Source: Bosea sp. 29B
Lineage (GTDB): Bacteria > Pseudomonadota > Alphaproteobacteria > Rhizobiales > Beijerinckiaceae
Direction: 5' to 3'
Length of the DNA stretch: 64,000 bases
Assembly: GCF_902506165.1 (NCBI RefSeq)
Contig: NZ_LR733817.1
Span: 2,013,407 to 2,077,406 of the forward strand
Shown here: positions 45,554-49,898 of the stretch, in pieces
How positions within the stretch are numbered: the stretch's first letter is position 1
Layout of the letters: each line of letters starts with the position of its first letter
Made by a program: the position numbers and the translations under genes
The notes under the pieces: generated by a model
The model's input: the letters and a program-made list of their open reading frames with translations, nothing else
Told to the model about the DNA's origin: nothing
The model's database searches: none

Positions 45554-46255
45554 TCAGGAGCGCGGGCGCAGGGAGGCGAGGAACCGCTCCACCGTCGGCA
45601 GGATGCGCTGCGCGATGACGCGCACGCCTTCAGCCGTCGGATGCAGCATGTCGGGCTGGTTCAATACCCGGTCCCCGGCGATCCCGTCCAGAAAGAAGGG
45701 ATAGAGGATGAGCCCATGTTTTTCGGCAAGCTTCGGATAGATCGCGTCGAAGCGGGCGACGTAGTCGGGGCCATTGCTGCGCGGCGCATACATGCCGGCG
45801 AGGAGGACCGGAATGCCACGCGCCTTCAATCCGGTCACGATCGCGTCAAGTGACTTCTCGGTCAGCGCCGGATCGACCCCGCGCAGGGCGTCATTGGCGC
45901 CGAGCTCGAGGATGACGCCATCGGTCCCGTCGGGCACCGACCAGTCGAGCCGCTCCAGCCCGCCCTGCGAGGTGTCGCCGGAGACGCCGGCATTGGCGAT
46001 CTCGACCGAAATCCCCTTGTCGCGCAGCATCTTCTCCAGCACCGTCGGGAAGGCGGCGCTGCCGGGCAGATTATAGCCGGCGCTCAAACTGTCGCCGAGC
46101 GCCACCAGCTTGAGAGGCTTGGTCTGGGCGAAGGTGGAGCTGTTCATCGAAAAAGAACCCAGGCTGGCGAAGACGAGCAGCATCACCGCCCAAATGCGCG
46201 GCGGCAGCTGGATTCGTGACAGTAAGCGCCCATATCGGTTGGCGGCGCGACGCAT
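45554..46255 (-). CDS. tesA: GDSL esterase/thioesterase, TesA-like
   Basis: A 233-residue SGNH hydrolase. The Ser is in ALGDSLSAGY, the Asn in GANDALRG and the Asp/His pair in PDMLHPTAEG. The N-terminal hydrophobic region (about 20-45) suggests export or membrane attachment. As in Escherichia coli it is divergent from an ABC transporter ATPase-permease pair. The start is uncertain. Confidence 0.9.
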   Translation of the reverse strand: MRRAANRYGRLLSRIQLPPRIWAVMLLVFASLGSFSMNSSTFAQTKPLKLVALGDSLSAGYNLPGSAAFPTVLEKMLRDKGISVEIANAGVSGDTSQGGLERLDWSVPDGTDGVILELGANDALRGVDPALTEKSLDAIVTGLKARGIPVLLAGMYAPRSNGPDYVARFDAIYPKLAEKHGLILYPFFLDGIAGDRVLNQPDMLHPTAEGVRVIAQRILPTVERFLASLRPRS

Positions 46256-46325: not shown

Positions 46326-47039
46326 ATGGCGGTGAGCGAAGGAACCCCGGCGGTGATCGAACTGCGCGATGTCGAGCTCAGTCTGGGGCGCGGCGCCGCC
46401 CGCGTCCATATCCTCAAGGGCGTCTCGCTGGCGATTCCGCAAGGGCAGGCCACCGGCCTCGTCGGCCCGTCTGGCTCCGGCAAGTCGACGCTGCTGATGA
46501 CCATGGCCGGGCTGGAGCGGCCCGATTCCGGGCTGGTGAAGGTCGCTGGCCAGGATTTCGGCGCGCTCGGTGAGGACTTGCTCGCCCTCTTCCGCGGCCG
46601 GCATATCGGCATCGTCTTCCAGTCCTTCCATCTCGTGCCGACGATGACCGCCCGCGAGAACGTCGCCCTGCCGCTGGAGCTCGCCGGCGCGGACGACGCT
46701 TTCGAGCGCGCCGCGGCCGAACTGCGCAATGTCGGCCTCGGCGAGCGCATGGATCACTACCCGGCCCAGCTTTCCGGCGGCGAGCAGCAGCGGGTCGCCA
46801 TCGCCCGCGCCGTTGCGCCCGACCCGGCGATCCTCGTCGCCGACGAGCCGACCGGAAATCTCGACGAGAGCACTGGCCGCTCGATCGTCGACCTGATCTT
46901 CGCGCTCCGGCGCGAGCGCGGCGCCACTCTCGTGCTGGTCACCCATGATCTCTCGCTCGCCGGCAGCTGCGACCGCACCGTCCGCCTGCGTGCCGGGCGG
47001 ATCGAGACCGAGGCCGGCACCGAGGCGCTGGCGATTTAG
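46326..47039 (+). CDS. ABC transporter ATPase, YbbA-like
   Basis: A 237-residue ATPase with Walker A GPSGSGKST, signature LSGGEQQRVAIARA and Walker B ILVADEPTGNLD, of the LolD/MacB/YbbA group that pairs with FtsX-type permeases. Its stop codon TAG now spans the junction of a 261-bp mobile element. Without the element and one TA copy the stop would be TAA and the permease ATG would start one base later. Confidence 0.93.
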   Translation: MAVSEGTPAVIELRDVELSLGRGAARVHILKGVSLAIPQGQATGLVGPSGSGKSTLLMTMAGLERPDSGLVKVAGQDFGALGEDLLALFRGRHIGIVFQSFHLVPTMTARENVALPLELAGADDAFERAAAELRNVGLGERMDHYPAQLSGGEQQRVAIARAVAPDPAILVADEPTGNLDESTGRSIVDLIFALRRERGATLVLVTHDLSLAGSCDRTVRLRAGRIETEAGTEALAI

Positions 47040-47299
47040 AGGCTGTTATGGACTCTGGCGTGGATTTGATGAGGTCAAAACGGCGGAGATGGGAGGAGCA
47101 TTGCGCCGCCGATACATTCGTATCGGCAAGCGATGCGACGCTGCAGCTCCGTCGTTTTCACCTCACCCGCAGGGCGCGGCGCTTTTGCGCGACTGCCGTG
47201 TCGTTCTTCGTAGCAAACCGGAAGGTTTGCGTCCTCGAACTCCTTGCATTCGCGCAAAATCGCCAGCGTCAAATCCACGCCAGAGTCCATAACAGCCTC
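47039..47299. mobile_element. MITE-like element with 31-bp perfect terminal inverted repeats
   Basis: A 261-bp non-coding element whose ends (47039-47069 and 47269-47299) are exact inverted copies, beginning GAGGCTGTTATGG. It is flanked by TA on both sides, consistent with a TA target duplication. Inside are an 18-bp pair at 47071-47088 and 47147-47164 (16 matches), a perfect 8-bp hairpin at 47108-47127 and a perfect 7-bp hairpin at 47213-47230. No transposase is coded, so it would need a parent element. Confidence 0.88.
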
Positions 47300-47303
47300 T
47301 AAG

Positions 47304-49898
47304 ATGCACGCCCCCGTCAAACCCTCAGCTTCCCCCTCTACTCCAGCGCGCCGCCCGGCCGGCCTGAAGCTCGCCTTGCGCCTCGCCTGGCGCGATCTGC
47401 GCGGCGGCCTGCGCGGCTTCGGCGTCTTCATCGCCTGCCTGGCGCTCGGCGTCATGGCGATCGCCGCGGTGTCCTCGGCCTCGCGCGGCCTGAGCGAAGG
47501 CCTCGGCCGCGAGGGCCGGCGCATACTCGGCGGCGATGCCGCCTTCAGCCTGATCCACCGCGAGCCGACCGCCGAGGAACACGCCTTCCTCGCCCGCCAT
47601 GGCCGGGTCTCGACCATCGCGACCCTGCGCAGCATGGCCAATGCCGGCGAGAAGGGCGCGGCCCTGGTCGAGCTCAAGGCTGTCGATGGCTCCTATCCCA
47701 GCATCGGCGAACTACGCACCGATCCCGCCCAGCCGGCGGCCGATCTGCTTGCCTTGCGCGACGGCGCCTATGGCGGCATCGCCGATCCCGTCCTGTTCGG
47801 CCGGCTCGACCTCAAGCCCGGCGACACCGTGCTGATCGGCTCGGCGCGGGTGCAATTGCGTGCCAGCCTGACCTCCGAGCCCGACAAGATCGCCGCCGGC
47901 GTCGGCTTCGGCCCGCGCCTGATCCTCTCGCAGGACGCGCTGCGGGCGTCCGAGCTGCTGCAGCCCGGCAGCCTGGTGCGCTGGACCGCTCGGGCCATCT
48001 TGCCCGATGGCGCCAATACCGATGCCGCGCTCGAGACCCTCCTCGCCAGCGCGACGCGCGAACAGCCGAATGCGGGCTGGGAAGTCCGCTCGCGCGCCAA
48101 CGCCGCCCCGAATTTCCAACGCAATATCGAGCGCTTCACCCAATTCCTGACCCTGGTCGGACTGACCGCGCTCCTGGTCGGCGGTGTCGGCGTCGCCAAT
48201 GCGGTGCGCCGCTTCGTCGAGGCCAAGCGGCTCGACTTCGCCACGCTGAAGGCGATCGGCGCCACCGGCGGCCGGGTCGTTGCCATCCATCTGACCGAGG
48301 TCATGCTCGTCGCCGGCTTCGGCATCGCGATTGGGCTCGCGCTCGGCGCTGCCGCGCCTTTCGCGCTTGGCTATATGCTTGCCGACATCCTGCCGCTGCC
48401 ATTCGAGCCAACGCTCGCTCCGGTCGAACTCGCCATCGCCGCGCTCTACGGGCTGCTGACGGCGCTGGTGTTCGCCATCATCCCGCTCGGCCGCGCCCAT
48501 GACGTTCCTGTCTCGGCGCTGTTCCGCGACCAGATCGAACCCGATCGGCGCCAGCCGCGCTGGTTCTATCGGGCGATCTTCCTGGCCGCGCTTGCCGGCC
48601 TCGTCGGCGTCGCGCTCGTCTTCGCCTATGATCGGCGCATCGCGCTGATCTATATCGGCGCCGCCGCCGGCATCTTTCTGCTGCTGCGGCTGATCGCCTG
48701 GGGCCTGATGGCACTGGCCCGCCGGGCCGGGCGTCCGAAGCGGCCGGCATTGCGCATGGCGCTCGCCAACACCTATCGGCCGGGCGCGCTGACCCAGTCG
48801 CTGGTGCTGTCGCTGGGCCTGGGCGTCGCCCTGCTCTCGACGCTCGCCTTCATCGACGTCAGCCTGCGCCGGCAACTGACCCAGTCCATGCCGCAGAAGG
48901 CGCCGAGTTTCTTCTTCCTCGACATCCCCAACGCCCAGGCCGCCGCCTTCGATCGCTTCCTCGCCGAGCAGCGCCCCGGCGCCCATGTCGAGCGCGTGCC
49001 GATGATGCGCGGCCGCATCGTCAGCGTGAACGACGTCCCGGCCGAGCAGATCAAGGCGAGCGAGCAGATGGCCTGGGTGCTCGAGGGCGACCGCGGCATC
49101 ACCTATTCGACCGCCATGCCCGAGGCCTCCAGGCTCGCCTCGGGCGAGTGGTGGCCGGAGAACTATCGCGGCGAGCCGCTGGTCTCCTTCGATGCCCGCG
49201 CCGTCGAGGGGCTCGGCCTCAAGCTCGGCGACAAGCTGACCGTCAACGTGCTCGGCCGCAACATCAGCGCGCGCATCGCCAATTTCCGCGACATCGAATG
49301 GCGCTCGCTCGGCATCAACTTCGTCATGGTGTTCTCGCCGAACACCTTCGCCGGCGCGCCGCACACCAACCTCGCCACCGTCACCGACAAGGGCGCGACG
49401 CCCGCGGCCAGCGACGCCGCGCTGATGCGTCAGCTCGCCATCGCCTTCCCGGCGGTGACGGCGGTTCGGGTCAAGGACGCGCTGGAGGCGGTCAACACCA
49501 TCGTCGGCCAGCTCGCCGGTGCGATTCGCGGCGCCTCCGGCCTCGCCATCAGCGCGAGCTTGCTGGTGCTGGCCGGTGCTCTGGCGGCCGGACAGAGGGC
49601 GCGGCTCTATGACGCGATGATCCTGAAGACGCTCGGCGCGACTCGCCGCTTCATACTTTCGTCGTACATCCTCGAATACGCAGGCATCGGTGTCGTGTCC
49701 GCCCTCTTCGGGCTTCTGGCAGGTGCCGCCGCGGGCTGGGGGGTCGTCACGCAAGTGATGAAGATAGATTTCGTCCCTGATCCGACAGGCGCTATTATCG
49801 CTGCGACTGCAGCCATCGTGGTCACCGTCGTGTTCGGATTGATCGGAACGCTGCAGATACTGTCGAAAGCGCCCGCTTCTCATCTGAGGAATTTATGA
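47304..49898 (+). CDS. ABC transporter permease, FtsX-like (YbbP-like)
   Basis: An 864-residue permease with about ten spans and two FtsX-type domains with large extracytoplasmic regions (about 70-275 and 520-700). The first domain is followed by VGGVGVANAVRRFVEAK and the last by LAAGQRARLYDAMILKTLGATRRFI. It pairs with the ATPase upstream and probably has a tesA-linked function. It starts 3 bases after a mobile element, so its translation now depends on its own initiation region. Confidence 0.93.
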   Translation: MHAPVKPSASPSTPARRPAGLKLALRLAWRDLRGGLRGFGVFIACLALGVMAIAAVSSASRGLSEGLGREGRRILGGDAAFSLIHREPTAEEHAFLARHGRVSTIATLRSMANAGEKGAALVELKAVDGSYPSIGELRTDPAQPAADLLALRDGAYGGIADPVLFGRLDLKPGDTVLIGSARVQLRASLTSEPDKIAAGVGFGPRLILSQDALRASELLQPGSLVRWTARAILPDGANTDAALETLLASATREQPNAGWEVRSRANAAPNFQRNIERFTQFLTLVGLTALLVGGVGVANAVRRFVEAKRLDFATLKAIGATGGRVVAIHLTEVMLVAGFGIAIGLALGAAAPFALGYMLADILPLPFEPTLAPVELAIAALYGLLTALVFAIIPLGRAHDVPVSALFRDQIEPDRRQPRWFYRAIFLAALAGLVGVALVFAYDRRIALIYIGAAAGIFLLLRLIAWGLMALARRAGRPKRPALRMALANTYRPGALTQSLVLSLGLGVALLSTLAFIDVSLRRQLTQSMPQKAPSFFFLDIPNAQAAAFDRFLAEQRPGAHVERVPMMRGRIVSVNDVPAEQIKASEQMAWVLEGDRGITYSTAMPEASRLASGEWWPENYRGEPLVSFDARAVEGLGLKLGDKLTVNVLGRNISARIANFRDIEWRSLGINFVMVFSPNTFAGAPHTNLATVTDKGATPAASDAALMRQLAIAFPAVTAVRVKDALEAVNTIVGQLAGAIRGASGLAISASLLVLAGALAAGQRARLYDAMILKTLGATRRFILSSYILEYAGIGVVSALFGLLAGAAAGWGVVTQVMKIDFVPDPTGAIIAATAAIVVTVVFGLIGTLQILSKAPASHLRNL

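Follow-up and report, generated by a model that had tools for sequence, protein, structure and literature searches.

The junction between the genes ybbA and ybbP of Bosea sp. 29B is interrupted by an IS5-type MITE, which lies in the TA of the ybbA stop codon and has been inserted there in one Bosea species. The object is of an ordinary kind, and its unusual part is the combination of stems that are matched between insertions, decay of these stems in place, and several classes of ends. The explanation that we consider best overall, with a probability of roughly 0.8, is that the palindrome of this IS5-type MITE belongs to its mobile lineage and that the element may serve as a relay within the operon. 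According to this explanation, a transposase acting in trans would have moved the non-autonomous element of the IS5-family type that now lies in the TA of the ybbA stop codon; separate insertions carry different but matched arms, and after insertion, with the exceptions given below, these arms decay one side at a time.

The window, that is, the whole stretch of 64,000 nucleotides that was analyzed (contig NZ_LR733817.1, positions 2,013,407 to 2,077,406), contains the element and its neighboring genes as listed in Table 1. As the first-pass annotation had described, a 261-bp core with perfect 31-bp terminal repeats is flanked by TA on both sides (47037-47301), the 31 bases read inward from either end being identical, and the gene limits that it gave (ATPase stop TAG at 47037-47039 and permease ATG at 47304) were also recovered. 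The stop codon of the ATPase survived the insertion as TAG because the first base of the element after the TA is G. The net insert of 263 bp rules out a multiple of three. The proposed nested hairpins are borne out by the predicted fold, a multi-way junction composed of the terminal stem, two long arms, and a 3-bp hairpin between the arms. The RNA fold has a predicted energy of -168.5 kcal/mol (z -16.8; none of 200 shuffles was equally stable) and the DNA fold is similar (z -15.4). The possibility that arms 1 and 2 of the window element are mutual inverted copies was rejected (local score of 14 vs a shuffle maximum of 22).

Table 1. Features of the ybbA-ybbP junction, in window coordinates.
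Feature	Coordinates	Strand	Basis or remark
TesA-like GDSL esterase, divergent neighbor	45554..46255	-	NCBIfam TesA model, score under cut-off
YbbA-like ABC ATPase	46326..47039	+	NCBIfam YbbA, score under cut-off
Left TA	47037..47038	none	inside ATPase stop TAG 47037-47039; sequence and 65/65 empty relatives
MITE core, 261 bp, class A	47039..47299	+	sequence, genus-wide matches
Left terminal repeat, 31 bp	47039..47069	+	first 12-16 bases equal the ends of IS5-family elements
SD-like GAGG	47039..47042	+	overlaps ATPase stop; 5 nt ahead of ATG 47048
Possible relay frame, 84 codons	47048..47302	+	TAA 47300-47302, one base ahead of permease ATG; putative function
Hairpin arm 1	47070..47165	+	limits counted from predicted fold
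Hairpin arm 2	47175..47268	+	predicted fold
Right terminal repeat, 31 bp	47269..47299	-	perfect inverse of left repeat
Right TA	47300..47301	none	sequence
YbbP-like FtsX-type permease	47304..49898	+	NCBIfam YbbP, score under cut-off

In E. coli, according to passages of a study of these proteins, YbbA, YbbP, and TesA form one complex and their genes are clustered, with tesA in the opposite direction (PMC12646458). The permease is encoded by a single copy in all 67 Bosea genomes, and the junction was readable in 66 of them; that of G033 (L103) was unreadable and stands outside the count of 65 relatives. Empty orthologous sites had been set beforehand as a test of the insertion, and all 65 readable junctions other than that of the source genome are empty. 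The close coupling expected without the element was likewise observed, as in all 65 the ATPase stop either overlaps the ATG or is separated from it by 1-10 nt; this stop is TGA in 64 and TAA in one. Among the ten closest relatives (permease identity of 92-97%), nine have GCGATC TGA(G/C)ATG and one has an overlapping TGATG. Removal of the element and one TA yields GCG ATT TAA G ATG, as had been claimed, but the exact empty site TAAGATG was found in none of the 65 relatives, and the pre-insertion site would have been two bases away from the sequence of the closest relatives. Because the relatives have no TA at the insertion point, we infer, rather than directly see, the duplication of TA at this site. 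No SD-like motif (GGAG, GAGG, AGGA, or AAGG) was found at -17 to -4 of the ybbP ATG in the source locus, and the same scan found none in nine of the ten closest relatives and GAGG in the tenth. With the stop and the ATG overlapping or near each other and ybbP mostly devoid of an SD, termination-restart coupling of the two genes is likely the ancestral state.

The identification of the element as a MITE, already made in the first pass, agrees with its short length (261 bp), the lack of a transposase, the 31-bp terminal inverted repeats, the 65 empty junctions among 65, and the presence of 69 full-length copies at 53 sites. The search for further copies that had been suggested returned matches at E≤0.001 in at least 27 of the 67 Bosea genomes, source included, with up to 11 places scored per genome, so that these counts are lower bounds. 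Near full-length copies occur in 22 of the matching genomes, and the richest (G027) has 13 full-length rows; two genomes (G002 and G025) have only the interior of the element, with other ends, and three (G004, G057, and G065) match over no more than 37-52 bases, within an inner hairpin. In the named genome collection, an exact match to a 24-base segment of the core was present in 21 stretches, all from Bosea. Within a draw of 248 genomes from the taxonomic family, in which up to three places per genome were scored, at least six gave a match at E≤1e-6, including two from other genera; phage and plasmid records gave no match to the element. The source genome harbors three related elements, namely the window copy, a copy of 75% identity, and one of another end class. 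The 75%-identical copy likewise interrupts a stop codon, that of a gene which we take from its translation to be fliG. The same stop codon, presumably that of fliG ahead of fliH, is occupied in two species by L002 (G000:C1:1075811-1076078, subfamily B) and L122 (G027, subfamily A). Variant forms were also observed: six copies (L166, L169, L273, L274, L275, and L276) have the same ends around shorter palindromes of 161-185 bp including TA, apparently with one arm, and three others (L110, L112, and L165) comprise copies that are joined back to back, contain an interruption, or have grown to 369 bp. Besides, the left flank of L022 and the right flank of L036 have 57 identical bases beside unrelated insertions, perhaps another repeat.

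The family to which the MITE belongs is indicated by its ends. A genus search with the bare end TAGAGGYTGTTA brought up, in G056, a transposase remnant that bears the same end and matches DDE_Tnp_1 above the cut-off, and the relatives of this remnant in named plasmids are whole IS5-family elements. Three of them, carried by Methylobacterium radiotolerans pNYY1_3, Lichenicola cladoniae, and Sphingomonas parapaucimobilis, were read at both ends (L236, L237, and L238) and all begin and end with GAGGCTGTTATG. They are 854-867 bp long including TA, have perfect terminal repeats of 12-15 bases, score above the cut-off for NCBIfam NF033580 (DUF4096 + DDE_Tnp_1), and, in M. radiotolerans and L. cladoniae, have TA on each side. 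The 12-16 bases at both ends of the MITE are the same as the ends of these elements of about 860 bp; thus, of the transposase types that the first-pass annotation had suggested as bearers of the same ends, the IS5 option was found, in three alphaproteobacterial plasmids. TA ends and YTAR sites are linked to IS630, and the MITE has both, but at its ends it agrees with transposase elements of the IS5 family (NF033580), so that an origin as an IS630/Tc1-type MITE is highly improbable. Judged by its terminal sequence, the MITE is of the IS5-family type, and its group is probably IS427, considering the length, IR, and DR of the published IS5/IS427 rows (832-865 bp, IR of 12-21, and DR mostly of 2; table rows in PMC3281130).

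An intact transposase element with the ends of the MITE was not found in the 67 Bosea genomes. Transposase relatives at E≤1e-30, with 36-43% identity, occur in nine of these genomes, and none was found in the source genome (G000) or in the five copy-rich genomes. TA-flanked repeats matching at least 12 of 16 bases were absent from all 30 Bosea IS5-type loci, and the nine such loci whose ends were read all differ from the MITE. An end in G036 (L179) resembles by eye that of the G056 remnant and adjoins an IS3-type integrase gene; it gave no protein match at E≤1e-5. The small Bosea genome G034 has 19 matches to the tail of an IS5-type transposase, and four of its loci (L210-L213) show, by eye, 3-bp TNA repeats at their ends. 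The record that contains L237 (NZ_CP155770.1, S. parapaucimobilis) is an 869-bp circle made up of nothing but the IS5-family element, with TAGCTA at the join between the two ends; it could be a circular form of the IS or have arisen in assembly.

The behavior of the palindrome was followed in an alignment (A1) of 62 of the 69 full-length copies, from which L108, L109, L118, L119, L137, L145, and L146 were excluded for length. Across these 62 copies, 30 of 76 pairs changed on both sides (17.5 in shuffles), and 312 cells did (87.7 in shuffles). The double changes of the terminal stem led to another Watson-Crick pair in 214 cells, compared with 15 G-U, 34 A-C, and 15 other cells, and the column pair 19/257 shows all four Watson-Crick types across the 62 copies with no intermediate. 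The picture within one site is different: the terminal stems of 14 orthologous same-site pairs at seven sites had no matched change and 31 one-sided changes (0 vs 21 in the 11 pairs whose interiors are at least 0.95 identical and 0 vs 10 in three pairs at 0.92-0.95), a count that covers 14 of 20 same-site pairs and seven of 13 sites, with pairs within one site not independent of each other. Between different sites, the 169 pairs with an interior identity ≥0.95 gave 527 matched and 356 one-sided changes, plus 117 in which both sides changed but did not pair, and the 398 pairs at 0.92-0.95 gave 1609, 734, and 282, respectively; these counts are not independent, since pairs share copies. Because matched changes are frequent between sites and absent from these 14 same-site pairs, the pairing belongs to the mobile lineage: the long palindrome is mainly a property of that lineage, with different but matched arms in different insertions and one-sided decay in place. 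Change in place amounts to 0.6-6% depending on the part of the element, and the difference between sites reaches 32% in the inner terminal stem and 33% in one arm-1 helix vs 4-10% in the remainder; the left inner end has 58 distinct strings among the 69 copies.

Six same-site pairs were left out of the count above. L014/L132 (five matched, one unpaired, and three one-sided changes) was set apart because its elements are as dissimilar as separate insertions, and L002/L122, which joins classes B and A, had ten matched and two one-sided changes. One matched change was found in L105/L146 (six one-sided) and one in L108/L133 (three one-sided), both of which also have a 17-bp length change, and none in L104/L137 (one one-sided) or L118/L131 (no one-sided). 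In each of L108/L133, L118/L131, and L105/L146, one species carries at the common site a copy that exceeds that of the other species by 17 bp, which may reflect conversion among copies. Mismatches in the terminal repeats were rejected as an age clock, as shared and private sites differ little (1.92 vs 1.47 of 24, p 0.07). Since three of 25 shared-site copies likewise had no mismatch in the 24 pairs, the perfect ends of the window element are no proof of youth.

The palindrome of such a MITE may be a site for the transposase or a signal in RNA, and these roles can be told apart in part by comparing copies at one site with copies at different sites; here, the comparison points to mobility. The pairing could be needed or made during transposition, either because only paired copies move or because fold-back synthesis copies one arm from the other. 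The contrast between 527 matched and 356 one-sided changes across sites and 0 and 21 in the 11 same-site pairs with interiors ≥0.95 is consistent with this, as is the lack of intermediates at column pair 19/257, and a precedent exists in E. coli, in which template switching turns imperfect palindromes into perfect ones, as stated in part of PMC7202029. The same picture would nevertheless arise if a few active master copies had compensated step by step, and we give a role of pairing in transposition even odds, as a complement to the best explanation rather than a competitor. The first-pass annotation had suggested that the element could now be an RNA-level regulator, and the element could conceivably switch the processing or stability of the RNA between ybbA and ybbP, as has been proposed for Correia/NEMIS through RNase III and for ERIC through RNase E, precedents described in passages of PMC10969869 and PMC2229807. 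The predicted RNA hairpin is very stable, and arm 1 has 50 G-U vs 16 A-C cells, as pairing of RNA from this strand would allow, 23 of the G-U cells coming from one pair. The suggestion is not supported, as the pairing of the terminal stem is not kept in place in the 14 orthologous pairs and the element had no Rfam match at E≤1. The rate of change of the terminal stem (0.027-0.029) is no lower than that of most other parts (0.006-0.060), and A-C exceeds G-U both in the terminal stem (34 vs 15) and in arm 2 (23 vs 18). The one-sided decay of the arms at occupied sites means that the hairpin is not conserved as a local regulator, and an RNA switch is unlikely.

The ends of these elements are also interchangeable, since related interiors carry four unrelated end classes. 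Class C ends (GGGTGTGTCGTCAGC) are found in L029 and L030, class D ends (GAGCCTCTAACAAAA) in L005 of the source genome, L031, and L163 and, with changes, in L032 and L033, and class E ends (GGGTCGAAACTCAATTATGG) in L281 from another genus; the palindrome of L030 was found by one detection routine and missed by another. Palindrome length is nearly constant across classes (261-265 bp in seven aligned representatives). Local scores of the interiors against the window element were 146 for C, 126 for E, and 51-66 for D (shuffle maxima of 22-37), compared with end scores of 6-15 between classes, 42-47 within D, and 20 for A vs B. The interior of class D is the weakest link, scoring 67-77 with B but only 26-41 with C and E, near the shuffle maxima of 24-30. 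The halves of the class D element L005 (also L283; G000:C1:2143553-2143815, source genome) resemble inverted copies of each other, with a local score of 62 vs a shuffle maximum of 22 and a 71% match to its own reverse strand. The matched changes between sites, together with unrelated end classes on related interiors, suggest that the ends change in both arms together, either by fold-back copying or by selection of paired copies in transposition. It is rather doubtful that, in Bosea and relatives, the outer stem is rewritten by fold-back during mobility, an end acquired or mutated in one arm being copied onto the other so that one element could switch between transposases, and that, at operon insertions, this end provides a ribosome start and a frame handing ribosomes to the next gene. 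If such rewriting were true, it would explain how elements devoid of a transposase switch their transposase dependence.

TA flanks both sides of 42 of the 69 full-length copies and a single side of 26. The sequences of the 53 sites are mainly CTAG (19), TTAG (11), CTAA (8), and TTAA (7), and the TA lies in a stop codon at 13 of them, in intergenic regions at 34, inside predicted genes at four, and at a gene edge at two, as classified by a purpose-built codon-model gene finder, for which the window junction served as the only check. Relative to the own flanks of the copies, stop codons appear overrepresented, as 6 of 80 YTAR lie in stops vs 13 of 49 insertions (p 5e-5) and 3 of 28 CTAG do (p 0.0015). 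In a control of 230 kb, 19 of 88 extragenic CTAG are in stops vs the same 13 of 49 insertions (p 0.33), and 32 of 230 YTAR are (p 0.029), a mild enrichment. Because the larger control is unremarkable with respect to CTAG, special targeting of stop codons is not needed and was rejected.

The consequences for ybbP depend on how its translation would begin. De novo initiation would be unlikely, because the SD is absent and the ATG adjoins the base of a highly stable stem. The end of the element read inward is GAGG-N5-ATG, and ribosomes finishing at the TAG of ybbA might restart there and read through the hairpins along the 84-codon frame, whose stop is a single base away from the ybbP ATG. Since this frame stops so close to the permease, the coupling of ybbA and ybbP may be relayed rather than lost, and an insertion could by this means occupy a coupled operon without breaking the coupling. 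We regard this relay, taken by itself, as tentative and somewhat less likely than not. Among the copies with a 261-bp core, 13 of 24 have a start at the relay position with the right TA forming part of the stop codon, and 11 lack this frame. Codon-position bias within the frame is weak (0.059, 0.089, and 0.101), so that it would matter through translation and not through its product, and a conserved 84-aa protein was rejected.

Tight junctions, defined post hoc as those with the upstream stop at most 16 nt before and the next start at most 13 nt after the insertion, received 10 insertions (orthologous copies counted once) at nine distinct junctions among the 81 elements tested; L002 and L122 share one of these junctions and L159 was counted as distinct by eye. 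All ten are oriented with transcription (binomial p of 0.002 for ten, 0.004 for nine, and 0.008 for eight), and within junctions of up to 60 nt 14 insertions follow transcription and three sites are opposite (L012/L107, L014/L132, and L125). The relay frame is present in seven of the ten, that of L124 running 6 bases past the element end; L017 and L159 lack the start codon at that place, and in L002 the ATG is followed by a stop after four codons. The excess over other copies (7 of 10 insertions vs 15 of 53 rows, mixed units, p 0.025) is confounded, as a core length of 261 is a lineage trait too, and is not independent evidence. The insertion could instead be mildly harmful, uncoupling the translation of ybbP and persisting only through its youth, in keeping with its occurrence at the ybbA-ybbP site in a single species and with a ybbP that has no SD. 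However, tight junctions were hit repeatedly and always in one orientation, and L013/L015, L016/L157, and the L017 group are common to different species, so that insertions of this kind do persist; we consider harm possible, with the balance leaning modestly against it.

In comparison with known systems, the Bosea MITE resembles the IS427 group of the IS5 family in its terminal 12-16 bases and in the TA at its ends and differs from it in lacking a transposase and in having 31-bp repeats instead of the 12-15 perfect bases of the three ISs. The Chunjie MITE of Geobacter uraniireducens is also reported to lie in an operon and, according to the title of the study that described it, leaves the operon structure undisturbed. 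The review passage has it disrupting one of two phosphate uptake operons (PMC10969869). Correia/NEMIS, ERIC, and RUP, compared by their descriptions, are similarly small, TA-flanked, and mostly intergenic, with stable long stem-loops (sections of PMC2229807), whereas the Bosea MITE has no Rfam match, carries two arms on its terminal stem, and has stems that vary in a matched way between insertions. Finally, an open frame crossing the element is also known from Rickettsia RPE, YPAL, and short Correia elements, whose frames are, in the sections of PMC2229807 that describe them, fused to host genes, whereas the frame of the Bosea MITE would be a separate, putative relay from stop to start.
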